Part shown: piece after piece, positions 13,375 to 64,000 of the stretch | How positions within the stretch are numbered: position 1 is the stretch's first letter | How the letters are laid out: every line of letters begins with the position of its first letter | Assembly: GCA_963575745.1 (NCBI GenBank) | Contig: CAUYUJ010021137.1 | Location: 407,335 to 471,334 of the forward strand | Direction of reading: 5' to 3' | Origin: Prorocentrum cordatum | Taxonomy: Eukaryota; Sar; Dinophyceae; Prorocentrales; Prorocentraceae | DNA: 64,000 nt | Program-made: the position numbers and the translations under genes | The notes under the pieces: generated by a model | Told to the model about the DNA's origin: nothing | Database searches by the model: none | What the model saw: the letters and a program-made list of their open reading frames with translations, nothing else

Positions 13375-13447
13375 CCTGGCGCGCGCTGGTTCAAGGGTGG
13401 CCCTCTGGCGAAAGCCTATCGGGCGCCCTTCGCTTCGCGCGCTCCGC

Positions 13448-14566: not shown

Positions 14567-14640
14567 GCCGTAAGTCTCCCTCGCCTTCGTGGCGGCAGGA
14601 TCGGTTCGTGCTGCACGGGCTGCCTTTGTGTACAAAAAAA

Positions 14641-14655
14641 GTGGCTCTAATCCGC
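14641..14655. repeat. Target-site duplication, right, of the retrocopy
   Basis: GTGGCTCTAATCCGC directly after the A7 tract, identical to 13338-13352. Confidence 0.85.
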
Positions 14656-14803
14656 AATGTTTTATGTACGTCTGTTGCTATAGATTGCGCCTCTCCTGGG
14701 GTACGAAACCTTCCTAGGAGGTCCCAGGAGGTCCCAAGAGGCTCCTGGAGACCCCAGGAAGCCCCAGTAGGTTTCAGGAGGCCCCAGGAGGCCCCAGGCT
14801 CAT
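14656..14803. repeat. Minisatellite continuation and (CAGGAGGCC)n repeat
   Basis: The 105-bp repeat unit resumes (TTTTATGTACG, CTATAGATTG, CTCTCCTGGGG words), followed from 14711 by the same GAGGCCCCAG repeat found before the retrocopy. Confidence 0.8.
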
Positions 14804-14810
14804 GCACAGA

Positions 14811-38690: not shown

Positions 38691-39165
38691 AAGGCGAGTT
38701 TCCTCGCAAAGCATTTCACGCAAATACAAGATAGCCCCTTTGAACGACGAAGGGCTATCGGCTCAGTTAGAGGTAAGCCAAACAGGCCATACCTCACCAA
38801 GCAAATGTGTATTAAGGCAAAGAGCCTGAGTTGTACAAAGCCGGCTCGTTGCCAGGCGTGAAATATATGGCTCGTTTCCGAGCAACTAGAAGGGCGCCTT
38901 TGTAGTAGGCGCCTGTGCTGGCAAATTGGACCGCGAGGGCAACAAGGACATACTAAAATTGATTAGACTTGGGTGTGTCTCTGTCCTCGGGACCCCGAAA
39001 GGGAACAAACTGCTTAACGTCATACTTGAATGACTGGGTGCCTGACATCACTTCCAGAAGCAGCTCCCGATCGATGCTTCCCTTTGTATGCCCGTCTGCG
39101 GTCATATCCCTAGTATCACACCACTGAACGTTATGTACTATACCTGTATCCAGAAGCTCACGTAT

Positions 39166-40788
39166 CTAACTGATATGTCCAAGCAGGGTCCGTTCTGTCG
39201 GTATCTTAAGATCCTTGCTTGATAATGATTTATAAACGGACTCAGCGTCTATGGTAAGAGATACTTTGATGGCTAGGCCTCCAACTTCACGCATATCTCG
39301 TAGTTGTCGTGGAGTCAAAGCTCCTGCCTTGAGCTCGTGGAGAGTGATGAGCGTAGGGTAACACTCATCGAGGTTATGCGCCGCTGCGAGTGCCTCCGCA
39401 GCATAGCTGGACCTCACCTGCAGTCGGTGTGATTTGCATAGTCCGTCACAGAGGTGAACAACGGACTTGCCTTGAGGCGAGTTTCCTCGCCGTAGTACAT
39501 TCGCCCCGCGTATGCCGTAGCCCTTGGTCTCATCATCCCCCTCCCCGGTAAGCTTCCGATACCCCGAATCGCTGTGGATGTCAACTTCACTCGTCGGCTT
39601 CATCCGAGGGAAGGTGATGCGTTTCGGGCAGCTGATCAGCTTTCGCGCCACAGCATTCAGGCGTCTGACTTGCAGATTGGTGGGCTCTTGGATTTTCTGG
39701 AGAGAGACCACGTATACCATGAGCCAGATTTGAGTAAGGAGGGCATAGGCGAGGGCTCCTCGCAAGCTGACGAACATGTCGGTAATGAGTTTCGTGGCTT
39801 TGGCATCGGCCGCCGCTCCTGTAAGTTCTGGGTGTGTGATAGGACGTAGTTGTTTGATATACTCGTCCTGATCCATAATCGCATCCCCTTGATCATTCTT
39901 AGTGTAGCGAACGGCGCAGTTCGTATATGTGTGTTTGTTTAGCTTGCATTTGCCAAACACCTTTTCGACACGCTGGACGTAGTCGTCTATATTTTTCTCT
40001 AGACCAGTCATGTTAGTATCATCGACATGTTTTGCCGTTAGCAGATCTTGGCTGAATTCAAACTCAGGGTCATAACTGGTCGGTGTAAGACCCATAGCTC
40101 GTGTGGTCGTACGAAGTTTGAGAGAGAACGCTCTTGGGGCATCCTTTGTACCCGTTCCTGGTTTGAGGCATCTGAGGCAGTGTCGGCTTTCGTCATAGGA
40201 TGAGAAGCCGGGTAGTGTACGAAGTACCTGGGCACTTCCCGGTGGAAGAGTGAAGCAGACCATGCGAGTTTCCTCGCCTGTGGCATGGGCAAGTTCCTCA
40301 TAGGTCAAACCCTTGAGGAACGCCTTGTCGATATCCATGGATGCTAAGATCCATTCTGGATGGCATGCCGCCTCACTTGCCAGGAGTCTTTGGGACTGCC
40401 TTCGGGCGGTTCCAGAGAATGTTTCCACATCGAAAGCCTCAGTATCCATAAATCCGCGAAGGACAAGTCTGAGACGAATGGTTTTAACGTTCTCGGTGCC
40501 CACCTTTACAAACTTCCACTTGTATACATACCTGGATGTCACGATGTTGGAAGCTTTGGATAGATCATACATCTCAAAGCATCGGTTGTCAATCCAGATT
40601 TGGAGCTCAGTATACAAAGCTTCACTAACCTTCTTTGGGTGTGCTGCTATGTCGGCTTTGGTCAGTAGATCATCTTCTTTAACGACCACAGCACGTTTAG
40701 CAGCAGTGGATGCATATACTCTCATCGTTGCGACCATATCGGTGTCGAGCTGTGCAAGTTGAGTCTGATCTAACACTATGTTTGACAT
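39166..40788 (-). pseudogene. E1 reverse transcriptase-RNase H
   Basis: A 540-residue minus frame. Copia-type RT (RVT_2): SRYVYKWKFVK and RLRLVLRGF near the start of the domain, MDIDKAFLKG with the first catalytic Asp (about 40335), and HVDD at 40018-40029 as polymerase site (YVDD in most Copia; HVDD is also usual in dinoflagellate relatives as I recall). RNase H: DIHSDSGYRKL, RSSYAAEALAA and LTIDAESVYKSL. The frame stops at 39166 in TAG, yet the next codons still read as the conserved RNase H tail (WCDTRDMTADGHTKG) to about 39000. The stop is therefore premature and this copy is inactive. Confidence 0.85.
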
Positions 40789-40852
40789 TTCTGATGTAAA
40801 ACATAACTCAACGCAAGGACCATATTCATCATTGTCAAGAGAGTAGCTCTCG

Positions 40853-41464
40853 TCAGGTGTGGTTGAGCAGAGAGAGAGAGACTATACAGGACTCTCGTGG
40901 TTCAGGCTCGTCTCCGAGCGTGACCGATGATATGGTATCTTCTTCGTCCATGGATGCTGAAGCCAAAACACATTGGTCAAGCAGCATGGTTGTTGGGACG
41001 CAGTAAAGATAATCGTCGGTAGTCGTCGTAGGATGAAGGTCCATACGTAGTTCGTCGTACCACTCTTCCAGCATCATAGCTTCGATATTGTTCCTCACTT
41101 TCCTCATAGATTGTCGACAGACGGCCTTCGCTCGGCGATGAAGCACCCGGGGTGTCTGGAGGAGGCCTGTTTCCAGGCGAATCGTGTTCTCCAGACGTGT
41201 TGCTTGAGTGCTGATATTTAGCCAGGTCGTCGTGAAATCCTAAGGAAGGGACGCGTGAAGTCAAGCATTGAATGAGTCTGGAATGAGTGCTACCAGTGAT
41301 CTGAGAAATGTTTAGGCCGGTGCCCACACACTCGTAGTAGTGGAAAGCCGGGCTGATATCGTTGTCATAGTGGATCAGCGTAGACCCGGTGGCGTACTTT
41401 ACTGCAGGTAGGATTGACACACTTTTGGCCAATCTAACTGCTACTACATGTGCTACTACATGTT
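40853..41464 (-). pseudogene. E1 linker between integrase and RT, frameshifted
   Basis: The integrase frame closes at 41465 in a run of TAG codons produced by a 12-bp direct repeat (ACATGTAGTAGC). After that, two overlapping minus frames (40977-41432 and 40853-41146) continue with polar residues (DDLAKYQHSSNT, EEWYDELRMD, MDEEDTISS). No domain is recognised; in Copia elements this position is a variable linker. Confidence 0.6.
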
Positions 41465-43450
41465 CTACTGTAACGCTAAATGTACGCGCGGGTGAAACTT
41501 GCTGTCGTCTGAAAGATTAAGGTTTCCCTTGTAATCGGGGATATAGCCGAAAATTTTGGCAGGTTTCCCTGCGCCGAGGTGTGCCACATATGTAAGGACG
41601 GTTTGCATGGCCATATTATCCATGCCAAGTTCCCGTGTGAGGAGGCATTCAATGTATAGTGTGTGACGAGCATCAGGATACATCACAATTACCTCACGAG
41701 ATCCTGCCTTGACAACAATATGTCCTCTTTCAGGCACATTACGGATCACCGGGAAGGGGCCATTCCAGCCTCCATGGTCGTCCTTAGTGGCAGTGGGTCG
41801 GTGGTAATCGACCAAATCCCCTGCAGAACAAAGGCGAGCACCATCAGGAGTCGTTTTAGCCCTGAGAGCCCGATTTGTCTTGGCCACAGCAGTGGCCTGA
41901 GTTATAGCTTCTAGTCTGATTTCCCGTACACGACGTTCTCGTTCGTGTCCTGAAGTCTCGGGTCCCTTGGGAAAGTCAAGGGTATCGAGATCGGGAAGGA
42001 AGGAGGGCTGACGTCCTGTGTGTGCTTGGTATGGCGATACTCCGTTATAAAACGTAAAGGCATTAGTAACGGAGATGCCTTCCGCCAGTACTCTAGTGAA
42101 TACAACAGGGATGTGTCTATTCAGTTCTTCCTCAATCATATGGAGGACGCCTCTGAGGATGCCGTTCCGTGACTCAATTGAAGTCGCGCGTTGGCCAGGT
42201 ACTCGGATACGAAGTTCCGTGCCCTTGGCCATCATGGTTTTAGCGGCATCGTTATTCAGGGCGCCTTCTCCGTCTGAGTATAACAATTTGAAGGGTCCAT
42301 GATAGGCAATCCAGCAGTAGTGGTAGGCGTCAATGATAGTGTCACGTTCTCTGTCGGAAATTTCTAGGCCCGCTGCCAGGCGTATACAGCGATCCATAAT
42401 ATGAAATATGGTCCGCTTTTTGTAGAACATGAGGTCCATTTCACCTTCGTCAAGCCTGTTACCAGGAAGGCTCACCAAGGGTAGTGTTGAGTTTCCTGGA
42501 CGTTCCCATGCTCTGCGTTCCCGACAGGTATCGCAAACTTCCTTGATCATGTTCAGTCGAACGTTATCAAGCCCCACTTTGTCAAGGATTAGCCTCATCT
42601 TTGGTTCCTTCGCATGATACCATCGCAGATGTAGTTTTCGGAGTTCCTTTTTCACGACGTGAGGTTCGTGACTACGGAGACTCTGTAGACTGTGTTGGAT
42701 GTCGAATCTAGTCCAGTCGGGTAGTCGAGGAGCCCCAGAGCCGGTGGAGGCAAGAGGGTTCCTTGTAGCTCTCCGTAGTTGGTCCCCTGTGTTGACTGCA
42801 TCTGGAGGTGGTGGTACGCCTTGTAGGCGGCCCCGACGGGCCGCTACCTGTGGCGTTTCGCTAGAGGACGCAGAGGGCGTGTTTCCACGCTCGGGGGCGT
42901 CTTGTAGCATGTCGTAGCTGCTGGCACCAGATGTCGGATCGACGTTACCGAAGGATCGTGGTCGTGGTGGCCTGGCGTGTGCGCCTTGGCGGCCACCTGA
43001 AGCTGAAGCTTGGCACTCACCCGGTTTAGGTAAGGGTTTCCACCAAGCTGGCACGGTTTTACCTTCGGGGTCGTGATCGTCTGGAAGTTTAAATGGTTCA
43101 GCAAAACGACATTTACCAGGTTCGGTATCGAGGTGGTTCTTAACACCCTTGCTTCTCGTAAGATCCCTCTGGCATGCCGGACATGGCCAGTATACAGAGA
43201 TGGAATCATGATATTTACACTGTGTAGGGTCTCTGTTATGGCTAGGACTGTCCTTTCGGACGTTGTCGATGCATGCCGGGCAAGTGGCCACCTTTGGGAT
43301 GATACGATCACCGATGCGTCTCATACCTTCGCCTGGTTCAGCTTGATCGGGAAGGTCTGCAGGGTAAGCATGTGCGGTACTTATAGGCGCGTTTCCGCGC
43401 GAAGTGTCAATGGCTTTCGCCAGATAGACGGCTTCCACGAAGGCAGACTG
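41465..43450 (-). pseudogene. E1 zinc-finger region and integrase
   Basis: The minus frame enters from the E2 junction at 43450; codons upstream of that belong to the E2 LTR. Near the start are two Cys/His clusters (CPACIDNV...CKYH and CPACQRDL...H...C, 43300-43100). The integrase follows: HHCC-like HLRWYHA...CDTCRERRAW (42640-42520), then catalytic Asp at 42436 (GEMDLMF), Asp at 42274 (LYSDGEGA) and Glu at 42175 (SIESRNG). The Asp-Glu spacing of 32 residues is close to the usual D,D-35-E. A Copia-type C-terminal part (DLVDYHR...GGWNGPFPVI) continues to 41500. The catalytic triad is kept although the element is broken elsewhere. Confidence 0.85.
43446..43450. repeat. Target-site duplication of E2, left
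   Basis: GACTG directly before the LTR, identical to 61428-61432. Confidence 0.9.
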
Positions 43451-43646
43451 TGTGTATGGGGTTGAAGTACAAGAGTACAGAACCCCTGATCCGTTGGTAG
43501 AGAGATGGAGGGATAGATGGATATCTTTCCCTCCCAAGCGATCAAGGTACGATCGCTCCAACTCAGTACCTGAGCCCAAACGGCCAGGTGCGGGAGAGGT
43601 AAGGATAAGGAGTATATATGAAGGTATTACACGGGTTCCATACACA
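43451..43646 (-). repeat. E2 3' LTR
   Basis: 196 bp; begins and ends with the inverted 9-mer TGTGTATGG/CCATACACA. Same TATA-like AGTATATATG as the 5' LTR. Confidence 0.96.
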
Positions 43647-43658
43647 CCCCCCGTCCCG
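43647..43658 (-). other. E2 polypurine tract
   Basis: On the sense strand GGGACGGGGGG directly precedes the 3' LTR, the expected place of the plus-strand primer. Confidence 0.75.
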
Positions 43659-44395
43659 AATCCCGCCCGTGAAGGCAGGACTCGGGATCCGCAGGATGGA
43701 ATCCGTAACCTCTGAACTCCTTTACCTTAAGTCTAAAAGGCAGCTGGGCTAAAAGTCAGCGGAGCCCAGTTGCAAGTTGAGGTAAGAAGAGATACCTTGG
43801 GTCTCTTTTTCTTCTCCAGGCGTACTTTGCCGCCCCCCTCGGTGCGCCCCCCAAAACGCTTCGGCGCTCGAGGGAGGAGAAGAATGAGACAAAGGTAGGC
43901 GGAGAAAGAAGATCTGAGCACCAAGGCAACATGTAAACCGCCTCGCAAGATTTGCGAGGCAGGTGTTGCCACCAGCTAGCAGATTATTCTCGACGCAATA
44001 TTGTTAAATTGTTAAAATATACATGCTAAGATCGTGTTGACGAACACAATCTTGAAATCAAACACAAGTCTGCCTAAAAGCAAATGTATGCCAAGATCGT
44101 GTTGACGATCACGATCCTGAAAGACATGCAAATCTGTGTTAAAGCAAGTACCTGGCCAGGAGAAAAAAATGTCGTGTTGATGAACACGAAAATGATGTAT
44201 AAAAATATGTGGCGACTCCCGTTGGCGTTGCTCCTTAGGAGGCTGCCTCGGTGATCGCAAAAGATATCTATATGTGTGTATGGCCACTTGTGTGAAAGAT
44301 TGAAGCGGCCTGAAAGAATGCATTAGCCACCGCTCAAGGCGAACTTTGATGAATGGAAGTTCTGCTCTTGAGCAGTGGGCCTTGCGGCCGACTCA
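43659..44395 (-). other. E2 3' untranslated region with hairpins
   Basis: No ORF of note. Holds a GGTG-TTGC-CACC mini-palindrome (43972), an adjacent CCTCGCAA/TTGCGAGG hairpin (43941-43959) and three successive GTGTTGA-NNA-CAC-type hairpins (about 44030, 44096 and 44170), the first two about 65 bp apart. Confidence 0.65.
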
Positions 44396-44821
44396 CTACG
44401 CGTCGCCGTCCTTGTAGAACCTGCGGTCCCACACCCTCTGGCCGTTGTACGTCACGTAGCTTGTCGTAAACGTTTCCCAAGTTGTCCTCGGGATCCAGTT
44501 GCGGAACCAATCGTTGTACGTGATATCCTGGATGTACACATACTCGTCGTTGTTGATCGCAATGTAGATCCAACATTTGATGTAGTAACTCCAGTATCGA
44601 AGACCCCAATCGCTGTCCTCGAGATTGTGGCGCCAGTAAGCAGCGTAATCAGATGTACGTGCTCTCTTGGCGCGCGGCATCGCGGGCATGTAGTCCTCCG
44701 CGCCTGAGGCGCTGGATGCAGCGGCGTCGCCAGGAGCAGGGCGCGGCGGCGGGCGCGGCGGCGGCCGCGGCTCCATGGCGTCATCGGACTGTTGGGAGTG
44801 TGTATCTGGATCGGTTCTCAT
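44396..44821 (-). CDS. E2 ORF3, small aromatic-rich protein
   Basis: 141 residues, starting 50 nt after the ORF2 stop and in another frame. The N-terminal third is Pro/Arg/Ala/Ser-rich, followed by a basic patch (PRAKRARTS) that could act as a nuclear signal. The C-terminal half (residues 57-138) is dense in Trp, Tyr and Asp with a hydrophobic centre (YWSYYIKCWIYIAINN). No family recognised. The codon phase is clean to the stop and it lies within the LTR-bounded element, so it is probably a real element gene, expressed perhaps by reinitiation or a spliced RNA. The ATG chosen is the first in frame; a second at residue 16 is possible. Confidence 0.6.
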   Translation of the reverse strand: MRTDPDTHSQQSDDAMEPRPPPRPPPRPAPGDAAASSASGAEDYMPAMPRAKRARTSDYAAYWRHNLEDSDWGLRYWSYYIKCWIYIAINNDEYVYIQDITYNDWFRNWIPRTTWETFTTSYVTYNGQRVWDRRFYKDGDA

Positions 44822-44871
44822 CCCTGTACTACCCCCCCTCTGGTCAGTGTGTGACGGATCGAGGGAGCCTA

Positions 44872-46626: not shown

Positions 46627-46668
46627 GTTGTCGTTCGCAGCTTTCTCATCTGCAGTAAGAACGATATT

Positions 46669-55600: not shown

Positions 55601-58600
55601 GATGTCTGGATATCAACAGCGTTATCTTCCGTTGTCATCGTAGACGGATCATCCCATTCTTTAGGATAAGAAAGTGGAGGATCAGGCATTGGCGTGTCGC
55701 CCAAGGGGCGAGAAGTAGAGGCCTTCACCTCGTCGTGCGCCTCCGGGTTGTGATGTCGAAGGGTACCTTCTTTCACGGGGTAGGTGAACTTGCCGTCAGG
55801 GATGATGATGTCTTTGACTCTGTGCACATGACACAGTTCACCATCAGGATTCTTGGCGTATGTAGCCGTGTCCAAAACAAGGTAGTCACCTGACCATCGT
55901 CCACCAGAGTGTAAGTGGTATCCCATGAATAACCCTTCCCGAGTGTTTTCTTTAAACTTTGCAGTCTCGTTGTTAATCTCGGGGTTGAGGCATTTCCAAA
56001 ATATCCGAGCACCGAATGGTATGCAGTGCCCAGGAAAGCTTTCGCCAAATCTTATTTCATGAGCTGTCTTTTCTGCATGCTCCTCGTTGAGGGCAGCGAC
56101 GCCCGTGGATGTATGCACAAAGTTGTGTCCACAGCAAAAGGCTTGCATGGCCTCTTTCCACCATTCGTGTCCCAGACCAGACATATGTAACACAGCTCTG
56201 GTACCAAGAATGACAATTTTGACAACGCGCTCAATCAGTCCATTTGTCTGTGGACGATGTGGCGTACTCGTGTCGTGTCTCCATCCCAGTTGGCGGCAAG
56301 CTTTCTGAAGCTCTCCAGAGTTGTCTGTGTAGATATGCTTCACTTCATCGTTCGCGGCGATGAACTGTTGAAAGGATGCCTTTGTAGTAGCTGCGTCTTT
56401 GTGTAGCGCTGGGTAGGCCATGAAGATGCCAGTATATCTGTCAAGGACAACAAGTGCATATTTGTCGCCATGTTTGTCCGCGGCATCGTCTTTGGCCAGT
56501 ACGACATGGTCGGCAGTTAGAGCTTCACCGAACTTCTTCGGGACAAAAGCTTGGTAGGCGTTGTCCTCTTCGGTGGGGTCTGCCGGTGGATGTGGTTTGC
56601 GCTGTCGTCTACACGGGGCATTCTGTGCCATCGTACGAGAACAGATCTCACAGTCAGGATGTTTTGGGCTGTGAGTCATGTAATGCATCGGATCGATCGG
56701 TTTCTTTTGTCTGTTGGGTAGAACTCGATCATTGTCTGGATGCGTTCGCGTGGGTGTCTCTGTCGGTATGTCGTTGTCTGCTTGAGCTATATCGAACCCC
56801 CCGCATTGTGGAGGAGAACACTGCATCTGAGACGTAGGCGAGTCGGTGGTTGTGTCCACGTTGGGCTCGTCTGTTCTTGTGTCGGGAGGTTCTTCGACCG
56901 TGATGGTCCGTGCTCCTCCTCCCTCTCCGACATGTGGTCTCTTGGGGCAGGTCCCTATGTGGGGTCGTAGCTCGTCTGCAGTGGTTGGTTGCTCTGTAGT
57001 TTTGCAGCGCCAACAAGCGTCGTTACAGCGGGCGGATGAACGCTTTCGCTGACGACGGCGGGGCGCTGACGAAGTGCATAAACGTGGTGGTGGTATCCGT
57101 GTTAAGTCGTCGAGTCGTAACTCTGGCACTCGATTGTTGACTGGAATATTATACCATTGGCCCCCCGGATCCTGAAGCATGTAGCCCAGCTCAGGATCCC
57201 AAAGCTGTCGAAAGCCATCAACCTCAATCAATTTTCCAACTGATAGTAATGATGGGCAGTCTGGTAAAGCAAGGGCTGAACTATGCAGTCCAACTTCGGG
57301 TAGCCGTATGTCGTAGTGCTCGTTGACGGTACGATCACCATTTGCAGTTTCCAGAATATGCTCTTCGCGAATAGATATGCGATCCGACTCGGTCTGCGTA
57401 AGTTCATGTTTTCCCTGAATATGATGGGCAGAGCCACTATCAAGAACCCAAGACCTTGTCAATGCTGCAGTCGAACGTGGAGTGTCGACTTGCTTTGTCG
57501 TTGTTGTCGTCTGGGCAGTCTTTGATGACTGCTTGACAGTGTCGTCATGCTTTCGGATCGCAGTTGGTGTGGCCACCGACTCTTTGTTGTGTCGGTAGTC
57601 GTACAGTTCGTCGTACCATAGTTGTGCCTCTTTTTGACATTCTCGTAAGGCCTCTGCACTATCATCCCACCATTTTTGTGGTAATGGATCTGGTACTTTG
57701 ACGATGTCACCCTCATTCGGCAGCTCTTTCCATCTGTCCAGTCTGGCTCTGCCAGATATAGTATGGAAGTAGTAGTCCACGTTGCGTTCGTCGAAGCGTA
57801 TCCGACGACGTGTCTTGGTAGATGCCGCTGTGGCCTTAGTGTTGGCCATGAGGGTCTTGTCACGGATGACGTAACTGCGGTCTGATCGGCGTGAACGTCT
57901 AAAGTTGGCAGGAGAACGTGCTCTGGTGTTGGATGAACCACGGGACGATCCGCGGCTTGGATACCGCTTGCCACGTCCTTTGTCACTGCCATATGATCTA
58001 TCACGGCCGCGTGGACTGCCGCGTCCGCCGCCACGATTGTCTCGTCCTCGGGAGGTAGATCTCGAAGATCTGTCGTAACGACTTCTCGATTGGCTGCGAG
58101 AGTCTTGGGACCTCCTGGATGTCGAACGGGATCGGTCGTATTGGCGTCGGTTGTCACGTCCCTGTCGTGAATCGCTTGCGTAGCGAAACCCCCCGCGTTG
58201 TGAAGACCGTTGGCTTCCTGATCCGCGGGATGGCGATCGGCCACGGCTGTCCTGGCTGGAAGTCCGTGGTCGACTCGGGCTTCGTTCAGGAGTCTTTGCA
58301 CCAGGTGCGAGATGAGCGTATTTGCATTTGTCGCCTGTTGTGCACTTGTTCTGTGCGAAATCCTTGCACTGCGCGACGTGCGGGTAGTTACACTTATCAC
58401 CTCTGGTACATGTGTTGCGCTTGGCAAAATCGAAGCTGAATGGCCTTGATGCTGGCTTCTTGTGATTCGCAGGTGTGGACATGCTACGGCGGGGGTTGCC
58501 ACCAGCCGCTGATGTTCTGGAAGATTTGTTGTTCTTCCAATCCCTGGAATATGTATGTAAAGCCTTGCGCCGTTCGCCATTGCGACAATTGCCTTTCTTC

Positions 58601-61167
58601 CATGCAGCGCACAGGTTGACCTGAGATCGTGTTTCGTGTTCGTACCGTAGCTTGTTTTGATTCTTCTCCAATTGTTTAATCTCCAGTATGTCCAGGACAC
58701 GCTGTCGAAGCCAACCGTAGGTACGATTCGGGTCGCTCATCTTCATGCGCTGGTACTCGTACATGTCTTGTTTCATCCATGCATGTCTACGAATCTGTGT
58801 GCGGAATAGCGATTCCAATATCTTTGGATCGGGTACTTCTCGGCATTCCAAGAGTAAGGCGTCCCAATCGGTAATGAAACGTTGCAAATATTCGTCTCTC
58901 ATCCTCAGTTCTTTAAGGCGCTCGAAATCGTGCAGGTCGTCGTCGACGTCTGTCACTTTGTAGGACTGTAGGATATGCCAGTATATCTGGCGTCCTTTGA
59001 GCATGCGTCCTGCTTTGTGCTCTCTGGTCTCGATGAGCCTGATTTGGTAGCGTAAGTCTGAGGATAAGATGCCGCTCAGAGCGGTTGCGAGTTTGCAATC
59101 GATGCTCTCAAAGTCTCCACTGTCTTGTAAATCCTCGAATGTACATTCGGGTTGTTCTGCCACGCATAGGAAGGCGTATGCTTTGGATGGCCGCCCTGAT
59201 GCGGCCCCGAAGTTATTTCGCACTCTTTGCTGCCACTCCAGCAGCTGCGTGATCTTAGGCAAGACAGGTACTCGGACGGTGTCTGACTCCTTGATAGGAG
59301 TCGTTGTATGGACCGACACCGCAGACACTGGTTGTGAGGGCATCGGTGCACCGTCGATGGTTGGTTCTGTGCGCACAGGCGACACATGACGTGTCTGTGC
59401 AGAAGCTGCCGCTGAGGCTGCTCCTGGAGATGTACGTCGTTGTTGCCCTGCTGAAGCTTGTGGTGCTTCGGCGGACGCTGCCGTCCGCCTGTGCAGGTCG
59501 GCTGCAGGTCGAAGGTGAATGTTGGTGTCGTTAGTGTGGTCGATCAGCTGATTGGTCCAGCTCGTCATGTCTTCTTGTATTTGACCCACCTTTTGGCGTG
59601 TATACTCATCAGTATCCCGAGACCGTTGGGAATACCGATCAAGTCGATGCTCGCATGCTCGGAGACGGGCGCTTTGTGCCTCCACCTCGCTTTCCAGACG
59701 TGCGAGATAACTCTCAACACGTACCTTCTCAGTATCTCTTTCATGAATAACCTGGGAGAGCTCTAACTGCGTGTGGTCCGCCGCCTTCTCAACCTCCTGC
59801 AACCTGTCAGTGAGGCGGGCGAAATCGTAAACCGTGGGAGGAGAATCCAGCTGGCCAGTCTGGGCTCGTCCGACACGCAACTCTGCCAGGGCGTCCTGTA
59901 CACCAGGAAAACGCTGCTCTATGTCAGAGATCTGGTTAGCGAGTGGCTGCACGACAGCGTTGGTCGCATCAAGCCTTTGAGTGATGACTCTCTCAGTACG
60001 CTGCAACATGTCGATCAGGTTCGACGAGTTTGTGTGTGCTTCGGTACGAAGCGTCGCCGTAGTGTGGTCTAGGTAAGATCGAAGATCATTGATCTGAGAC
60101 TGAACGTCGCCGAGGTCTGTGGCCTCGGTTGGAGTTGGTCGGTTACGGAGCTGGTCGTGGATCTCATCATGTAAAATCCTGACCGCAGAAATGCCTGTGT
60201 CGCGTACGATCACAAGTTGTTGCTCCATCTGCGCGAGATAGTTGCGCAGGTTCTCGACCATCGCCGTTCGTTCACCTGAGTGTGACACCTCACGATCAAC
60301 CTGGTACTGCAGTTCTCCTATGATGCGTCGATCTTCGGCGATCCTGGAATCGATGATCCCTAAGGCGCCGTCAAGATCGCGGCGTATGGCTGCAGTATCG
60401 GTGGCGTTCGTCTGAACGCTCTGTAGTAGTCCAGAGTATTGGCTGGACACGAAGGTTTCAACCTGGTCTCTGAGCTCAGCTATGTCACCTGCGGCGGACG
60501 TCTCCGCCAGCTGGTCGTCTGAGATGGAGAGGTGGGGAGCGTCAGCTTCCCTGTGTCCCCTGTCGCGGGGAGTGCATGGCCTCTGAGAGGCAGTGCGCGG
60601 GCTCGACCTGCTTTCGCCGCATGGGCCTGGGGCTCCACGGCGGTTGCGCGCGGACGAGCTGCGACTCGGACCATGTGTGTGTGATGTCTCATCCGATGAT
60701 ACCTTGGGGTACCGCGTCTGTGGCTGTGCCGACACTGGTCTACTGAGTTCCTCGAAGGTAGCTACGTGCTCCGCTACAGGGACGGTCGCAGGGCTGGGGG
60801 TCCCAGCACCTGAGGTCCATCGGCGGTTAGCGCGAAAGCGCCCTGGAGTATCGAGACCGGCAAGGCTTTCGCCTGACGCGGTTGGGATTGCTCCCGACGG
60901 GGAAGGGGAGGGAGGATCGAAGGTCGGCGTGTGAAACTCCTTCCTTCCTGTTCCTACTCCTTCTCCTGTCCCCCCGCGGGCGGCGCTGCGGCGAAGTTCA
61001 GCAGCTAGACGCGCCTCGGGTCCTCGGGAGCTGGGGGGGGTATCGGGGACACCAACACAGTCCGCATTAATGCTCTCCAACTCGTCACCGAGCCGTCGCA
61101 CCGTGGGAGAGCTTGGACGCGAAGCCCCAATGGAACCCTTACGGCGCATGCGCCGAAGCGGCTCCAT
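46669..61167 (-). CDS. E2 Gag-Pol polyprotein with a Tpt1/KptA-like domain
   Basis: 4,832 residues from the first ATG after the 5' LTR; the frame is open into the LTR. In order: coiled coils (residues 236-537); gag core (632-825); CCCH fingers, clearest CX7CX5CX3H near 930 (58318-58372); an Arg/Ser-rich stretch; protease DSG at 1243; integrase Asp1553, Asp1615, Glu1646 after an H/C cluster; RT with SDAPGAYTQALL and YVDD at 2374-2377; RNase H with Asp2639, SSTESE and TKEQIADMMTK near 2860. All catalytic residues are intact. Residues about 2880-4832 are extra: a Cys-rich knot, an RS-rich stretch, about 1,450 unrecognised residues and, at about 4382-4507, a domain like the ADP-ribosyl-transferase lobe of RNA 2'-phosphotransferase. 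No stop or frameshift interrupts it. Confidence 0.93.
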   Translation of the reverse strand: MEPLRRMRRKGSIGASRPSSPTVRRLGDELESINADCVGVPDTPPSSRGPEARLAAELRRSAARGGTGEGVGTGRKEFHTPTFDPPSPSPSGAIPTASGESLAGLDTPGRFRANRRWTSGAGTPSPATVPVAEHVATFEELSRPVSAQPQTRYPKVSSDETSHTHGPSRSSSARNRRGAPGPCGESRSSPRTASQRPCTPRDRGHREADAPHLSISDDQLAETSAAGDIAELRDQVETFVSSQYSGLLQSVQTNATDTAAIRRDLDGALGIIDSRIAEDRRIIGELQYQVDREVSHSGERTAMVENLRNYLAQMEQQLVIVRDTGISAVRILHDEIHDQLRNRPTPTEATDLGDVQSQINDLRSYLDHTTATLRTEAHTNSSNLIDMLQRTERVITQRLDATNAVVQPLANQISDIEQRFPGVQDALAELRVGRAQTGQLDSPPTVYDFARLTDRLQEVEKAADHTQLELSQVIHERDTEKVRVESYLARLESEVEAQSARLRACEHRLDRYSQRSRDTDEYTRQKVGQIQEDMTSWTNQLIDHTNDTNIHLRPAADLHRRTAASAEAPQASAGQQRRTSPGAASAAASAQTRHVSPVRTEPTIDGAPMPSQPVSAVSVHTTTPIKESDTVRVPVLPKITQLLEWQQRVRNNFGAASGRPSKAYAFLCVAEQPECTFEDLQDSGDFESIDCKLATALSGILSSDLRYQIRLIETREHKAGRMLKGRQIYWHILQSYKVTDVDDDLHDFERLKELRMRDEYLQRFITDWDALLLECREVPDPKILESLFRTQIRRHAWMKQDMYEYQRMKMSDPNRTYGWLRQRVLDILEIKQLEKNQNKLRYEHETRSQVNLCAAWKKGNCRNGERRKALHTYSRDWKNNKSSRTSAAGGNPRRSMSTPANHKKPASRPFSFDFAKRNTCTRGDKCNYPHVAQCKDFAQNKCTTGDKCKYAHLAPGAKTPERSPSRPRTSSQDSRGRSPSRGSGSQRSSQRGGFRYASDSRQGRDNRRQYDRSRSTSRRSQDSRSQSRSRYDRSSRSTSRGRDNRGGGRGSPRGRDRSYGSDKGRGKRYPSRGSSRGSSNTRARSPANFRRSRRSDRSYVIRDKTLMANTKATAASTKTRRRIRFDERNVDYYFHTISGRARLDRWKELPNEGDIVKVPDPLPQKWWDDSAEALRECQKEAQLWYDELYDYRHNKESVATPTAIRKHDDTVKQSSKTAQTTTTTKQVDTPRSTAALTRSWVLDSGSAHHIQGKHELTQTESDRISIREEHILETANGDRTVNEHYDIRLPEVGLHSSALALPDCPSLLSVGKLIEVDGFRQLWDPELGYMLQDPGGQWYNIPVNNRVPELRLDDLTRIPPPRLCTSSAPRRRQRKRSSARCNDACWRCKTTEQPTTADELRPHIGTCPKRPHVGEGGGARTITVEEPPDTRTDEPNVDTTTDSPTSQMQCSPPQCGGFDIAQADNDIPTETPTRTHPDNDRVLPNRQKKPIDPMHYMTHSPKHPDCEICSRTMAQNAPCRRQRKPHPPADPTEEDNAYQAFVPKKFGEALTADHVVLAKDDAADKHGDKYALVVLDRYTGIFMAYPALHKDAATTKASFQQFIAANDEVKHIYTDNSGELQKACRQLGWRHDTSTPHRPQTNGLIERVVKIVILGTRAVLHMSGLGHEWWKEAMQAFCCGHNFVHTSTGVAALNEEHAEKTAHEIRFGESFPGHCIPFGARIFWKCLNPEINNETAKFKENTREGLFMGYHLHSGGRWSGDYLVLDTATYAKNPDGELCHVHRVKDIIIPDGKFTYPVKEGTLRHHNPEAHDEVKASTSRPLGDTPMPDPPLSYPKEWDDPSTMTTEDNAVDIQTSASEVVAPAPEPDYWEQRGYCVIRHIRTPRKKLFIPTDDVMNIPVPVDQLDVTRDFKTTSTFEGESNFRDVWDGVSANDHRELSEPWTGTIQFYELPKMTPDGKIVVRGRETRVQTTTRPDHVLPEHWKTLSRGQQKKEIDYANDVKRAREIRDRAALRVWTRQDKQVNNFRTTTSGGPTWNTVERRITYDTDNGDVIRDENVKGVTNKEILYAKLPGGPRDITTVLYYRQLPQQHDGEERALVFVDNEGTDFGTLNPLIRKFTQSVVIPTMPRETNYMPAHKDKIPDSTWSRPALVTRNLSKKEVAAEPRAQEALRREYERLEKKQTWMLETVAEKANIESQAIRNGTKVHFFNILELSSVKHEELPPDLREFKGRVVVQGNTGKDETGLAAIFADAASSASHIEASKLCDATALLPQYAGEQSDAPGAYTQALLYGDGRIDPVDTWIAIPKWRQPTSWSKYNNPVCRLRLALYGHPLAGVFWERKCRTCLESVGFEPISGWECVWRHNKLGLILSVYVDDFKLAGPAHNLQTGWDYIRKSGIDLDPPTPYSQYLGCGQQAYDVPQSIFDKRMSTIRPMLPAHNEKDYNTAKHVRGIRHDMLGFTDQCIERYLECASKRAQGTGSRRKRSDSPRASRSKSPSSSGSVARPTSVLNARPRSSSPAKSVDTTSTNTIPATYHDLPDAETPGIEDTSFTESDYSDEGVLGQDAASVLMKILYLARCCRFDLLHPVCMLAREITKWNTTCDKRLHRLICYIKTTRTHCLHGWIGDSSDKLSIMLFTDASFADCITSSKSTTGVFAALVGPNTFFPVNAVCKKQTVVSHSSTESEIVALDSALRLEGLPLLSFWEAVVGVAKTCKEKNTCLSCHRHVDPAMCPTLAAKKKRKPSPRKAPPTRGSSPSRRQLPLNTDLPTTPKRRTISHEGTVLHVDPEPAPEISAPKVRLIVLEDNQAVIKIVQKGRTPALRHLHRTHRINLDWICETCQIEHIELKYVGTKEQIADMMTKHFETKKADLWKDLLEHSLIFPVTPIQCPPIRGPRRPDGLPHEAEPPKLNGCPEICKILLTEKERWGDVGSECGFQCVGQANHEGLCACMYHIGVPAADTASRTPRSRARSPHGRHPRHPPSPPRDAERTRTLIIRSHRSNFTTRATKLTSILFAACEAKISEIGSNPDPSIHEMDQAQPLNLVGWPIGYDKEYDPNARDDDRVGFAYHAQTGRPRDPEDGYICIHQRRADRSGEFDLRVPDESSIRELARFASVEAKKWASTESGSVGGNANYEYNTFTATPWLSFMRAMCMISSLFNRNPSVQDSVRGLHDHLNATIPGSDRKCPPSNFTTMILKTEWMMIHNDWSKIGSAVLGQYTEDSVTDTQNYYNNGLSAPSDVYQNGLVTPCYAPKIDRAMAKLPTRPPGIARTSDTSGHIGHIVEDNLVTNTRAFSDLTQTKKFRRKFTTWLTARGGFGSIGSNPKTVATPSDHPNGWVAILGDPQDTERTYRWTPYNEGNDFFGDAADHMGSNDPGMTPGNDVDPFELDHAKYSAFCGGRLVSTLLSDNGWHSLIQEDLGLLLHHAFGPSGHAYKWTNLYTDSTWIMHPKKGAKGAKHKKYPTFGIDELNAAQKRIDLAKASNTALVPLFMPCLNRAEYMGGATLEHLPTMIRDDIMMWAFSFGNYREWFRQNDTPMGQDCVLLPEAGYEGVRYGMEELRKQRFEKEESRINALLNNQFENTLEQRNMIRKIREARGLMFQSDNASIKKWRELNETIWEYWANDFPSSIKQRHYHRGLNAMVVWSANDIACANPGQNTIDMRRHHSRAPTNVHELQKMECEGGVPTLMPVHVLVDVSRFVDVMQYFRCPTVMGLGKAAQWGVHPNFDHHTSDLITIMQNRGITVLPSDHWVDTHDRVTPQAWHAKQNNHDMAMFTTQYCDAVCYRNFCALIQSLPSQPYPFRPPLLTAVTDKQAYTQAKEIMAALDFREKLTNEWKRDLSLTTLMTQTANEMAHCAWMASCAEGTLPASLPAETGDTTEPTPGRSTRTPAPDPGDPDQTLPDNDPWVMAYNDLFQYLMLLIKEYPGAWASWHSLEKDELLEPKIVKTVEDAHAVTWVVFEQFLHQIKDLDGDDNATKSRLIAEENRLSSHRIGPAAENEKNIEACKTFFKQNALDRVALGHDPNVPTSVWKAADDIAQPAPPGPLPDPLQPGPQSIKASQPSTPEPKAEQQPADQLAKAEAVPIPDDGTDLEAMELEATPAEEEPSPHEMNILSWQDSCERSMHEDTSKLGIFDNSCTIREWKLQAGVKDDHPYMCPMLRGTKATNGFACIEDQEWYEQLLHDDSVIAHAPDIAQSGCFPEWKWIPLPHYDDVRYGPELIDEEWLGTNKYMSKDITTMLRHEVHYKKFWINQLHDRRINIWDKTTKNDWKISSNWKSFKEMVEWKFRDSKERHNGPSMEAAVAHFKKDGENDGYTDWNDYYPIFIIRAFQKHIDPQKNRIEIYAKPIPEGGDPSTFDWNSVIAIRCVGGHSCVNPSSKPWNMGWESLQWTDIKYLHHGTASRAWKNILVTGIIPGCVEPHSQRDRNYKPSQRSEAFFSSSTYLNNVQKNPHTSVESYKFNSYKNEVELVINMEIATKAGCRFWLGAQGAIMTEDVVPAAAIIAIRRLKPHHMHGQQLWPDGDPWDYPPLAAREPLSKYEICACLPGELIDDPPGLAPIDPDHDMEPPRTTPASAPSARPGETPAGRTSAEDALDEQIVRAMIQETNHKADDKEWLIALSHCREALRPITSKIMQKDWDRRPAFNDVRMGDFIVIKNWGSTKCFHYDNHWPKGNHNTKIALSKGHIYGPIIHFGIFDKFFAVQIPILNYGLRWVNIWYNDKSMPLKGVVLASPIRIEEHAIDPTWMETVLKGPTSCSEEILQHKVSGSLPYLGMPSIHRPRIPRTPPRRPAPRTPDPDELVATPAEDNAQTGDIPRQGTASSHDPLITVIVDI
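47655..48020 (-). other. Tpt1/KptA-like domain within the E2 polyprotein
   Basis: Reads YLHHGTASRAW (His codon at 47979), then GIIPG, an Arg-rich loop, SEAFFSSS, and VELVINMEIATKAGCRFWLG followed by QGAIMTEDVVPAAAI. Known family pattern: KptA/Tpt1 has HGT, a later loop with Arg, then a strand, a helix with A/xxxG(I)xF, and a NGVWLTxxVPxxxI end. The order and spacing agree; the canonical NGVWL is QGAIM here. The family moves a splice-junction 2'-phosphate to NAD+. Whether this copy is active cannot be judged from the sequence. Confidence 0.68.
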
Positions 61168-61219
61168 TAGGCTCGCATGCAAGGTCACCGCGGGCGAGTC
61201 GGTGAAGGTGAGCGTTAAA

Positions 61220-61231
61220 GGGCTGATAACC
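61220..61231 (-). other. Candidate E2 primer-binding site
   Basis: Sense strand directly after the 5' LTR reads GGTTATCAGCCC, close to the initiator-tRNA-Met type site common in Copia elements (TGGTATCAGAGC) but with an extra T and other changes. Position is right; the match is weak. Confidence 0.4.
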
Positions 61232-61427
61232 TGTGTATGGGGTTGAAGTACAAGAGTACAGAACCCCTGATCCGTTGGTAGAGAGATGGAGGGATAGATG
61301 GATATCTTTCCCTCCCAAGCGATCAAGGTACGATCGCTCCAACTCAGTACCTGAGCCCAAACGGCCAGGTGCGGGAGAGGTAAGGATAAGGAGTATATAT
61401 GAGGGTATCACACGGGTTCCATACACA
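61232..61427 (-). repeat. E2 5' LTR
   Basis: 196 bp, TGTGTATGG...CCATACACA, two differences from the other LTR. Confidence 0.96.
61392..61401 (-). promoter_or_regulatory. TATA-like element in the E2 5' LTR
   Basis: Sense strand CATATATACT, about 27-36 bp into the LTR, the only TATA-like word in it and repeated in the 3' LTR. Dinoflagellate host genes mostly lack TATA boxes, so this is a candidate only. Confidence 0.45.
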
Positions 61428-61432
61428 GACTG
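61428..61432. repeat. Target-site duplication of E2, right
   Basis: GACTG directly after the 5' LTR, identical to 43446-43450. Confidence 0.9.
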
Positions 61433-62479
61433 CAGTCGTCGAGTATATTTTTGTGCCAGTGAAAGCTCTTTATTGCACGGTTGTGCGTGCACATGCTGAC
61501 CGTTGCACTTGAGTCGCTTAAAGGGTTTAAGAATTGTCTCGTCGTTGCTGGTGATGTTTGTCGGCTTCTTAATATAGTCACCAGCTGTATCTTTGAGTCC
61601 CGTAGCACATTGGTCAATGCGTACGGTTGTGATGTGCGGTCGGTTGGCAAGTTTCTTCCACGGGGAAATATCATCCACCCATGTTCCTGTAGGTTGTTCG
61701 CGTATAAACCACCTCCGGGCGTCATCCTGGGTTACAGCAATTTTACCACAATAAGTTATGTGTGGTAAATCTTCTCTGTGGTGCTGTTCCCAAGTGTTGT
61801 AGTTGACTTTGTAGTTGTAGTAGGATGGTGGTCCTGCGGTGCGGCAACTGGGTTGTAGTATGGCAACTCGTACGTAGCATATAGCGAAGTAATGATCTAT
61901 AACCCGCTGCACCGAGGGGTCTCCCAGATCGACATATGTAGTCTTGTCTAGGTTGCCTCCTGAGGAGAGCCCCCTTGAGAAGGCAAGCTCTGAGATACCA
62001 CCCTCACCGCCACAAAGCTCCAACATATCCACGCAGTTGTTATGACCATAGCATAGTGTAGCAACTATGCTGTATATGTTAGCGTGTGTGTCGGGCATAG
62101 ATGTGGGGAGGGTAAGGAACAGGTCATCGTCCTCATCGGAGCTTATCAGCTCAATAGGGACGTCAGTACTCCAGGTTGCCATAAGATCCTGTCCGAGTCC
62201 TGATAAATCGTCGCCGCAATCATCGTTTCCGTCTTCAACGTGCTTTTTAATGCGGCGAGGCTTGATGCCTGCTTCCTTTTCGGCTTTGAGCCTTTCCTTC
62301 TGCTTGATACGCGATTCTGCGGGTAGAACTTGCTCATCTTGTTCGCCGGTCTGTGTGCCCATTGTCGTGGTTGAGTGGGTACATGCGTCAATCGCCAGAG
62401 TCGGGAGGGGGAGAGAACAGTCATCTATGATGACGCGTCGAGGTTTCTGTGGTGATTGAATAGGCTCGTTTCCGAGCAA
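61428..62479 (-). pseudogene. E1 methyltransferase-like domain
   Basis: About 350 residues of element sequence; the frame continues into E2 only by chance. N-terminal third: charged, Lys/Glu-rich, then acidic. From about 62040: CVDMLELCGGEGGISELAFSRG, a glycine-rich loop typical of SAM binding, then a DLGDPSVQ strand, VAILQPSCRTAGPPS (61862, the place where methyltransferases carry a PC or PP motif), FIREQPTGTW, DQCATGL and IKKPTNITSND. The order matches DNA (C5) methyltransferase-like domains carried by some dinoflagellate retroelements; the strict PCQ catalytic motif is not present (PSC instead). The domain is intact but ends at the E2 insertion. It could equally be a related class I methyltransferase with no DNA activity. 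Confidence 0.65.
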
Positions 62480-63884
62480 GACCGGTTCTTCGGGTTGCCA
62501 ATACAGCCGAGTACTGATGTTGGCAACCCCTGCAGGTAGTGGTGCATGCCAATCATACCCTGTTGGTTGATCGGTAACTGAGATATCCTGAATAACCGCA
62601 TTGGTGTCCAGGTTAATTGTTACACGTCGGATAACTTCAGACCATTTCGGTCCTCCCTTTATTGGTCGTCACGTAGTGACGGATGTTGTGGTCTGTACGG
62701 GTATAGGTGTTTAAATATATAGGCACGTTTCCGTGCGTGGTGGTGCTCCCCAGGATGTTGTCGTTCAGATGACGGATGAGTGTAGTACGTGTCTGAGCTC
62801 GCCATTCAGCATGCCGTACTGTATGGCCGTACCAATCCAATGCATGTTGTGGTATAGCCTGTTTGCATGTACATGCCCACAGCTTCGAGCTAATCGGTAT
62901 TGATGACGCTACCTGCATATAAGTACCACTCAGTGTACTGTCTTGCAGATTGAACCGAATACCGAAATGACACAAACGCATCCGTATTACTGACAACTTA
63001 AGATCTTCCAAGGTATCACGTACTGGAGATAATTTCCAAACATATCCTGGGGGACCAAATATTATGATTTCCATACGGAGTTTCTTAGCTTTTATCAACA
63101 GGTTCTGGATACGTCACCAATGTGGGGCCACTCTCTTTCCTGGAGTGCGTACATACCAGTCACCTGGGGTACTAATCCATATGAGAGTATAATCTCCACT
63201 GATCACCGCACCCAGGTAATCTGTGCCCACGCTTGTCATAAGCTCATTGTGGGAAATACGATCACAGATATAACCTCGGGTGCGGAGGTCGGCGCAAGCC
63301 TCTCTCGTATCCTCAATGACACAAGCCCTCTTACTAAGGCAGGTTACCCCGCTGTCCTTGTTACCCCCCGGCTTTTCGGCCATCAGGCAAGACGACGAGG
63401 GGGCGACGTCGCCCTGCCATCTTCAAGATAAAGAAGATGTGCCTGCAATGTCTGCCAGCATCTGGGCTTCCCTCAGATGCTGGAGCTCAGCACTGCAGCG
63501 CGCCGTGGCCTCAGAGGCGGATTGCTCCGCAAATGCTGTCAGCATGGATGGATTATCCATCAGCTGTTTCAGCGCGCCTTTGGACCTAGCGTCGCTGACA
63601 GTCTGCAGCTCACGGTTAGTGTATCCCATCACTATCTTCCAGCGGGGCTGTACAGCGTCCATGGGTACACTTCCACCATGCTGGGCCAGTGTCCTGGCAA
63701 CAAAGCAATCGAACGTCTCAAGATCGTCGATGCTGTCGCCTCGCATAGTGGCCTTGGCGAGCGTCTCCGTCAACCCCTGAGGCAGGTTTCCCTGCAATTG
63801 CTCGCGCTCCTGCGCCGGGGTCGGCTCGCCCGTCATCGCTGTCTGAAATGACGTGCTGCTTGAGCTCGAGGCGGGTTGCCCCGC
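62464..63884 (-). repeat. Dispersed GNRA-loop mini-palindromes of E1, right part
   Basis: Same 14-bp pattern as on the left side, at 62464 (GCTCG stem), 62723 (GCACG), 63782 (GCAGG) and 63871 (GCGGG, loop TTGC). One copy with a stem mismatch is at 63339 (loop TTAC). On the sense strand loops are GAAA, GCAA and GTAA. Confidence 0.78.
62637..63383 (-). pseudogene. E1 conserved region of unknown function, one in-frame TGA
   Basis: Two minus frames (63114-63383 and 62637-63098) are in the same phase and separated by a single TGA (63114) after APHW; the codons on both sides read as one protein. Motifs: DYTLIWISTPGDWYV, then KAKKLRMEIIIFGPPGYVW, then a Cys/His-poor, beta-rich section and a C-terminal part with Trp and His (ALDWYGHTVRHAEW). 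The alternating hydrophobic strands ending in TPG or PPG suggest a nucleotide- or SAM-binding fold, but I cannot name it. TGA could have arisen from CGA by a C-to-T change. Confidence 0.6.
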
Positions 63885-63971
63885 AGCTCCAAAACAATCA
63901 CACCTGATCGACAGATGCCCTGACGGCAACTTCGTCGTTGGCATGATTTTGGAGCCCTCAGGGAGCTCCAT
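63423..63971 (-). pseudogene. E1 gag-like N-terminal region (partial)
   Basis: A 182-residue minus frame in the same phase as the 63383 frame and separated from it by one TGA at 63423; it may start beyond the window. Content: Ser-rich stretch, Gln/Glu-rich helices (AQEREQLQGNLPQGLTETL), DLETFDCFVARTLAQHGG, and a helix-rich end (LKQLMDNPSMLTAFAEQSASEA). Position at the 5' end of the element suggests Gag. No zinc knuckle is seen here. Confidence 0.5.
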
Positions 63972-64000
63972 TTTGACCTGCCCCTTACCAGGGAATATCA

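Follow-up and report, generated by a model that had tools for sequence, protein, structure and literature searches.

A Dispersed Array of Sense-Strand, GNRA-Type Hairpins in a Long Terminal Repeat Retrotransposon of Prorocentrum cordatum

Introduction

The psi-type signals of retroviruses and of Ty1 and Ty3 are single structures or small groups of them close to the 5′ end, some with purine-rich or GNRA-like loops. How a long terminal repeat (LTR) retrotransposon selects its own RNA among similar elements is, to our knowledge, poorly understood. The present work concerns E1, a minus-strand LTR retrotransposon with a dispersed array of short hairpins, found in a 64,000-nt stretch of Prorocentrum cordatum DNA (contig CAUYUJ010021137.1; the whole stretch is referred to as the window). 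Dispersed stem-loops that share a recognition motif and vary in their other stem bases are described for RNA viruses and for the pregenomic RNA of hepatitis B virus (HBV) in one account (PMC6281560). The E1 array is unusual for this kind of element; a search of the open-access literature, which would not rule out an existing publication, found no hairpin array of such a kind in an LTR retrotransposon. An earlier note, made from the letters of the window, had described these palindromes, and its claims are taken up below.

Results

E1 Hairpins in the Window

E1 is the outer of two nested elements and lies in the window in two pieces, 38320–43450 and 61428–64000:
38320–64000, minus strand, E1, outer LTR retrotransposon with copia-type reverse transcriptase (RT), visible part, interrupted by E2 at 43451–61427
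38320–38587, minus strand, E1 3′ LTR, matching the LTR of the copy on contig C2 and holding no hairpins

The E1 part of the window contained 14 perfect palindromes, which on the sense (minus) strand read GC-NN-G-loop-C-N′N′-GC. The plus-strand loop was TTTC in eleven and TTGC, TCTC and TGTC in one each (sense GAAA, GCAA, GAGA and GACA, respectively). Nine sense types of middle pair were present (GG, AG, CA, AC, TC, CG, GT, CT and GA), all complementary. Three imperfect sites fitted the same fixed frame, at 63339 (loop TTAC, one G·U pair), 42368 (one G·U pair, loop not GNRA) and 38844 (one mismatch and one G·U pair). The sites, with their state in other E1 copies and the open reading frame (ORF) reading where noted, are as follows:
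38694–38707, minus strand, GCGAG-GAAA-CTCGC, outside the listed ORFs; identical in 32 of 33 copies
38870–38883, minus strand, GCTCG-GAAA-CGAGC, outside the listed ORFs; identical in 33 of 33
39477–39490, minus strand, GCGAG-GAAA-CTCGC in the RT ORF (RRGNSP); identical in 33 of 33, re-paired GCGTG-GCCA-CACGC in the related piece L056
40264–40277, minus strand, GCGAG-GAAA-CTCGC in the RT ORF (GEETR); identical in 32 of 33, absent without a gap in homologues and L056
40906–40919, minus strand, GCTCG-GAGA-CGAGC; identical in 32 of 33
41165–41178, minus strand, GCCTG-GAAA-CAGGC; identical in 29 of 33, two more with the same stem and loop GAGA
41559–41572, minus strand, GCAGG-GAAA-CCTGC (AGKPA); identical in 33 of 33
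42877–42890, minus strand, GCGTG-GAAA-CACGC; same in four of four copies
43387–43400, minus strand, GCGCG-GAAA-CGCGC; stem same in four of four, loop GAGA in two
62464–62477, minus strand, GCTCG-GAAA-CGAGC (LLGNEP); same in three other copies
62723–62736, minus strand, GCACG-GAAA-CGTGC; same in three other copies
63339–63352, minus strand, near-copy GCGGG-GTAA-CCTGC with one G·U; GCGGG-GCAA-CCTGC in three other copies
63685–63698, minus strand, GCCAG-GACA-CTGGC (GNNA, not GNRA); two of three other copies agree, and C26 has a broken stem
63782–63795, minus strand, GCAGG-GAAA-CCTGC (LQGNLP); three other copies share the stem and have loops GAAA, GATA and GGAA
63871–63884, minus strand, GCGGG-GCAA-CCCGC; same in four of four

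The earlier note had claimed at least twelve palindromes with a fixed frame, a TTTC loop (one TTGC, TTAC in near-copies) and middle pairs that change in seven or more ways yet always stay paired, lying in different codon phases and also outside coding sequence. Its count was surpassed in the window and again in full-span copies (35–37 hairpins); frame and loops agreed with its description, TCTC and TGTC being additional, and its readings AGKPA and LQGNLP were correct, with three phases seen and non-ORF sites such as 38694 and 38870 present. The span that it gave, 38694–63884, takes in the 18-kb E2, an unrelated element that has no E1-type hairpins.

With GNRA loops and stems of at least 5 bp, five hairpins were observed in the E1 5′ piece against 0.11 expected and nine in the 3′ piece against 0.26 (100 shuffles; shuffles were first-order Markov throughout). 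In the host stretch, positions 1–38000, the same scan gave 2 and 4 against 1.34 and 1.80 expected. A reading of such palindromes as host-wide was discarded, no excess being present in this stretch. The earlier note had named equal density in shuffled or host coding sequence of the same composition as a result that would count against it; shuffles yielded 0.02 E1-design hairpins per element, and none occurred in host positions 1–38000, a flank made up largely of repeats, or in E2. A GTTTCC core was present in 8 of 20 palindromes with a 5-bp stem and 4-nt loop in 38000–46650, which includes the E2 end, and in 3 of 8 in 61330–64000, but in none of 20 in 46650–61330 and none of 117 in the 38-kb host stretch. 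No Rfam match reached the gathering threshold in the window.

The Array in Full-Span Copies

Sequence was read from genome assembly G000 (4.13 Gb, 4,128 Mb, in 21,875 contigs). It comprised three E1 copies, C2, C15 and C26, whose full extent was judged from homology, with the LTR pair checked for C2 alone, the remainder of the window's own copy (W), 30 RT loci (that of the window included), 11 kb from an E2 relative, 5 kb from a third family and eight 3-kb loci. E1 is present in many copies in this genome: in a search with its RT protein, the 80 places scored, of 12,582 candidates, were 96–100% identical. The four copies C2, C15, C26 and W are related and their counts are not independent.

These four copies, scanned with the pattern GC..G....C..GC, complementary middle pairs and any loop, contained 37, 35, 37 and 37 hairpins, respectively. 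Although loops had not been preselected, 32, 31, 35 and 34 were GNRA (132 of 146), as the earlier note had proposed for the sense strand, and all began with a sense-strand G; no antisense-strand GNRA loop was found among these palindromes in the four copies. Conversely, sites chosen by the GNRA frame had Watson–Crick stems in 32, 31, 35 and 34 cases. When hairpins with GNNA loops and at least 5 bp were listed for the C2 copy irrespective of stem sequence, 35 of 39 had the GCNNG stem. In C2, the GC clamp, the G-C closing pair and the loop G were constant, the last loop base was A in 35 of 37 hairpins and the base 3′ of the stem was C in 32 of 37. Each copy used 10–11 of the 16 middle-pair types; AA, AT, TA, TT and CC were absent from all four, as expected if stability is needed.

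The 36 C2 sites used spanned positions 470–15556, all between the LTRs and none within them. Their spacing was more even than in random placements, with a mean of 431 nt and a coefficient of variation of 0.60 against 0.74–1.24 (5–95% range of 2000 placements). Of these sites, 23, 6 and 3 fell into the three codon phases, one could be assigned to two frames, and three were outside every frame that was listed for C2; one of the latter (window 62464) is within an open frame of the window copy.

Conservation and Covariation

Among 33 close copies, the pairwise difference at seven sites was 0.0054 in hairpins, about one tenth of that in the 30-nt flanks (0.062) and in the remaining sequence (0.051). 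Sites in phase 0, in phase 1 and outside ORFs were constant to the same degree as phase-2 sites, so that conservation of the E1 hairpins is independent of the reading frame. This agrees with the earlier proposal of selection at the level of RNA rather than protein.

The four-copy alignment comprised 41 rows, one site appearing twice, i.e., 40 distinct sites, orthologous down to 78% identity. In its 12 pairwise comparisons hairpin bases were 2.0–12 times less divergent than other bases. For the four distant pairs in the 5′ block, hairpin sites showed 0.037–0.063 differences per base against 0.21–0.23 elsewhere, and 93–95% of stem pairs were unchanged against 60–64% of control complementary pairs. 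Double compensatory changes made up 3 of 6 to 3 of 9 changed stem pairs, compared with 5.6–6.7% of changed control pairs. They were located at four aligned sites (TG/CA versus TC/GA, GA/TC versus GG/CC, AG/CT versus GG/CC, and an A-T versus a G-C closing pair), which bears out the stem covariation described in the earlier note; broken stems were also present among the four copies. The free stem positions are complementary, which demonstrates selection for base pairing, and the strand-specific GNRA rule points to RNA, although a plus-strand cDNA hairpin is conceivable. Selection for sense-strand structure in E1 is well supported.

Genome-Wide Counts and Relatives

The GAAA-loop pattern GCNNGTTTCCNNGC had at least 38,124 genome matches against at least 7,419 for the reversed control, and the GCAA-loop form at least 36,855 against at least 9,441. 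With the same stem and a scrambled loop (sense AAAG) the counts were at least 16,161 and at least 14,611; the excess over the scrambled loop itself was about 2.3-fold. All are lower bounds. Among the first 100 of the GAAA-loop places listed, 49 were inside the three fetched E1 copies, 47 of them paired; 13 of the 51 places elsewhere were paired, several clustered like further copies. The unpaired listed places look like background.

The pattern GCAGGTTGCCCCGC (sense GCGGG-GCAA-CCTGC, one G·U) formed clusters at C2:1086633-1111921, C2:1599294-1609597, C2:1732684-1742809 and C3:542964-552907. Judged from pattern matches only, these probably represent a further element family that carries a hairpin array of its own.

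A 5-kb piece from a separate family in the same genome, L056 (60–62% identity to E1 in a global alignment), contained seven E1-type sense hairpins and none of that type among its listed antisense hairpins. Its loops were GCCA, GTCA, GCTA, GAAA and one GAAT, and one middle pair was AA. The one relative that a search of genome contigs yielded, L001, is a distant member of the same element class (5.5 kb, 40% RT identity); its record is labelled as a Planctomycetota metagenome-assembled genome, and it is probably a mis-binned eukaryote contig. In L001, 5-bp hairpins with any loop numbered 10 against about 6 expected. A search of viral contigs yielded no relatives.

Metagenome protein relatives gave a hint of hairpin footprints. 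The motif X-G-[ND]-Y had a Y codon that is the reverse complement of that of X in 47 of 137 cases against 26.5 in shuffles, a count that conserved positions inflate; one of nine control dipeptides (X-G-T-Y) was also far above its shuffle. Readings compatible with a hairpin were HGNVP (P0074), RRGNAP (P0075), ERGNTP (P0014) and HGDMP (P0008), and those not compatible were RGNVP (P0023 and P0079), HGNLP (P0077) and RGDRP (P0040). At site 39477, P0007 and P0010 aligned ungapped, P0075 had the same length by eye, and other relatives had inserts; the three read R-G-(N/H)-(T/A), compatible with a re-paired stem. At site 40264 (GEETR in E1) the relatives covering the site mostly read GE-x-E-R or GE-x-x-R with no gap, which indicates that the hairpin arose by substitution.

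The Hairpins of E2

The element nested in E1, probably a copia-type LTR element, has hairpins of another design:
43451–61427, minus strand, E2, target-site duplication CAGTC in the flanks
43451–43646, minus strand, E2 3′ LTR
61232–61427, minus strand, E2 5′ LTR

E2 is about 18 kb long with 196-bp LTRs of 98.98% identity. Its hairpins have seven stem positions, of which the fifth from the loop is always mismatched; 13 were present in sense and one in antisense orientation, with a shuffle mean of 0.08. With the mismatch moved, 0–2 were found per position, and without it none. The two pairs adjoining the loop vary and stay complementary. Ten of the 13 loops were GNRA and three GCCA:
60881–60898, minus strand, GTCGGGA-GCAA-TCCCAAC, mismatch at pair 5 from the loop
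57563–57580, minus strand, GTCGGTG-GCCA-CACCAAC; kept in the E2 relative L054, loop GTCA
54791–54808, minus strand, GTCGGTA-GTAA-TACCAAC; in L054 the two loop-adjoining pairs are of G·U type, loop GCAG
53648–53665, minus strand, GTCGGTC-GCCA-GACCTAC; kept in L054, loop GCGA
52878–52895, minus strand, GCCGTAG-GCAA-CTACCGC
51766–51783, minus strand, GTCGGCG-GCAA-CGCCAAC
51176–51193, minus strand, GACGGTG-GCAA-CACCATC
48866–48883, minus strand, GCTGGAG-GCAA-CTCCTGC
47417–47434, minus strand, GCCGGGG-GAAA-CCCCTGC
46757–46774, minus strand, GCTGGTG-GCCA-CACCTGC
45989–46006, minus strand, GCTGGTG-GAAA-CACCTGC
44375–44392, minus strand, GTCGGCC-GCAA-GGCCCAC, outside the listed ORFs
43959–43976, minus strand, GCTGGTG-GCAA-CACCTGC, outside the listed ORFs

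One sub-pattern of these hairpins, GTCGGNNGNAANNCCAAC, had at least 1580 genome matches against at least 77 when reversed; GCTGGNNGNAANNCCTGC is another. In L054 (83% identity to E2) all four alignable sites kept G·U-tolerant pairing, one with a non-GNNA loop.

Anatomy of the Elements

The full span of E1 is about 16 kb. The C2 copy (1771227–1787156, 15930 nt) has 253-bp LTRs of 97.2% identity, and the 5′ LTR of the window copy lies outside the window near coordinate 72274 (match in locus L022); LTRs at both ends were thus found as a pair in C2 and as the window 3′ LTR with the L022 5′ LTR. An RVT_2-type RT was identified above the Pfam cut-off (PF07727, E-value 2.5e-9 in window protein P0001 and 4.4e-9 in a second E1 ORF scan). 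A CCHC zinc knuckle in ORF1 stayed under its cut-off (PF00098, E 0.0013, 19.1 bits against 20.8), and no Pfam integrase match was obtained among the E1 ORFs scanned. In E2, the rve, CCCH and RVT_2 matches of P0006 were all below the Pfam cut-offs. One uninterrupted open frame of 4885 codons (46669–61326) was found in E2, a great length for a copia-type element; the frame includes low-complexity and CCCH regions.

The E1 copy in C2 also contains a match to the Tpt1/KptA RNA 2′-phosphotransferase family (L010:4504-7173, E 2.1e-19); a weak match in the E2 frame was below cut-off (E 6.6e-4). An RNA-repair enzyme within an LTR retrotransposon would be unusual. The same E1 region has RING-type zinc finger matches (PF17123, 2.6e-7; PF13639, 3e-6), which suggests a putative element-borne ubiquitin ligase. 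A segment LELCGGEGG...PSC, shared by P0004 (window 61139–62479) and L001, resembles by eye an S-adenosylmethionine-dependent (cytosine-C5-like) methyltransferase, and P0004 had no Pfam match; methyltransferases in eukaryotic retrotransposons were reportedly described by de Mendoza in 2018. The window has a GC content of 57.5%, and simple and tandem repeats abound in its host flank, 1–38000 (GAG/TCC, GAT, TCG; units of 10, 14, 16 and 90 nt).

Discussion

The hairpins may be interpreted as dispersed, family-specific RNA recognition elements, most likely packaging or assembly signals bound by Gag, a reading to which we give a probability of roughly one half. Its nearest parallel is assembly mediated by packaging signals in RNA viruses (PMC6281560). 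The E1 genomic RNA carries about 37 hairpins GC-NN-G-(GNRA)-C-N′N′-GC, mostly followed by C, about one per 430 nt and on the sense strand only. Under the proposed reading, a protein would recognise what they have in common (GC clamp, G-C closing pair, GNRA loop and 3′ C) and tolerate any paired middle, and the short stems would still permit the passage of ribosomes. The reader would be the Gag/nucleocapsid of E1 itself, and the array would act as many dispersed packaging or assembly signals that mark and compact the E1 RNA within the particle. The stem codes of the families (5 bp in E1; 4 bp, a fixed mismatch and 2 bp in E2) would let each Gag pick its own RNA among rival elements. An element-encoded reader fits best with the uniform motif, the spread from LTR to LTR and the codes that differ by family.

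A number of observations weigh against this interpretation. Three, 5, 5 and 4 GNRA-frame sites per copy (of 35–40) lacked Watson–Crick pairing, and local folding was on average no better with native than with shuffled flanks (mean P 0.79 against 0.78, medians 0.94 and 0.84). The lowest conservation ratio was only 2-fold, for W and C2 in the 5′ block (0.060 against 0.118), C2 being the copy closest to the window, and admitting alignment sites that were perfect in at least one copy favours pairing somewhat. In L056 only two of seven loops were GNRA, and the hairpin was kept at three of eight alignable E1 sites, one re-paired (GCGAG-GAAA-CTCGC versus GCGTG-GCCA-CACGC), five being without it, from which it follows that sites turn over while the stem motif persists. 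L001 had no GNRA hairpin of at least 4 bp on either strand; the array is not required by the element class. The spacing in E2 was uneven (416–3318 nt), retroviral packaging signals lie mainly near the 5′ end and do not form an even array, and the hairpin evidence by itself is compatible with a reader encoded by either element or host.

It is conceivable, as a minority view with real weight, that the selected structures serve a host or element factor in some role other than packaging, such as export from the nucleus, shielding of the RNA from decay or silencing, control of translation, or RNA processing and repair. The structural and conservation evidence fits this equally, and the Tpt1/KptA matches in E1 and, weakly, in E2 keep RNA repair among the rivals; a single host factor acting on both elements would less easily account for the distinct stem codes of E1 and E2, and a spread from LTR to LTR would be unexpected for a single processing site. 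A signal acting as DNA (a cruciform, a plus-strand cDNA hairpin or a palindromic site for a dimeric protein) is unlikely. The sites are indeed palindromic and short DNA hairpins with GNNA-type loops are stable, but the free middle positions are mutually complementary, as in pairing and not as in dimer half-sites, the loop lacks symmetry and resembles GNRA on just the sense strand, genome matches with a scrambled loop barely outnumber those of the reversed control, and in the C2 copy the sites end at the LTRs.

Docking of the tetraloops into RNA receptors, by which the RNA would compact itself without protein, is very improbable: GNRA is the classic tertiary-contact loop, but a given site may carry GAAA, GCAA, GAGA, GTAA or other loops in different copies, known receptors discriminate between GNRA loops, and only one pair of halves resembling the 11-nt receptor was found within 60 nt in E1. 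Even less credence is given to selection for a repeated peptide such as xGNxP. Although 23 of the 36 C2 sites are in the phase that reads so, constancy is just as high at sites in other phases (AGKPA, GEETR) and at those outside ORFs, and selection for a peptide would not require reverse-complementary arms. The earlier note had offered packaging, processing and tiny mobile palindromes as roles. Packaging or processing stands as a candidate; palindromes jumping into the element, like the organelle or bacterial ones, are exceedingly unlikely. Many near-identical copies across coding and non-coding sequence would suit them, but relatives lacking the 40264 palindrome align without an indel at this one clear site, contrary to the precise insertion envisaged, the sites are orthologous down to 78% identity and conserved 2–12-fold over background, only one orientation occurs, and few paired places fell outside element copies among the first 100 listed.

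Returning to Gag-bound recognition elements, a wider proposal would be that the retroelement families of this genome carry family-specific hairpin codes along the whole length of their RNA, each read by its own Gag as a label of self and non-self. We put it forward tentatively, at rather under an even chance. The codes would be the 5-bp GNRA type of E1, the seven-position type with a fixed mismatch of E2 and apparently, from pattern matches only, a GCRGG-GCAA type in a third family, and dozens of weak sites would jointly decide which RNA enters which particle. If true, LTR retrotransposons would here possess an identity system based on structure, one that co-evolves by compensatory stem changes. 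A loose motif makes dispersed packaging signals difficult to demonstrate; the E1 motif is rigid, repeated about 37 times and covarying, with parallel versions in other families, and E1 and E2 offer unusually clean, directly testable material. The case also shows strong selection on RNA structure within coding sequence, which goes unrecorded in ordinary annotation of genes or repeats.

The E1 sites resemble Rickettsia palindromic elements, algal organelle palindromes and the bacterial repetitive extragenic palindromic (REP) sequences in being small palindromes in many copies, some of them coding; unlike those, they have no insertion footprint where this can be judged, keep a fixed orientation and are orthologous under purifying selection. 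They share a free stem and a fixed loop with the target hairpin or cruciform of diversity-generating retroelements, which has a short G..A loop; the latter is a single DNA hairpin in phage, whereas E1 has dozens, inside the element and in a eukaryote. As with retroviral and Ty1/Ty3 signals, a sense-strand RNA structure is found in a Gag-encoding element, but the E1 array extends from LTR to LTR. RNA-level selection, which dispersed packaging signals call for, was found in E1 independently of codon phase. As in the packaging signals of MS2, satellite tobacco necrosis virus (STNV), parechovirus, enterovirus E and HBV (cf. PMC6281560), stem-loops with a shared motif occur along the E1 genome, as judged from sequence and covariation. 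The E1 motif differs from those viral signals in being more uniform, in occurring about 37 times with middle pairs that covary, and in its location in an LTR retrotransposon.

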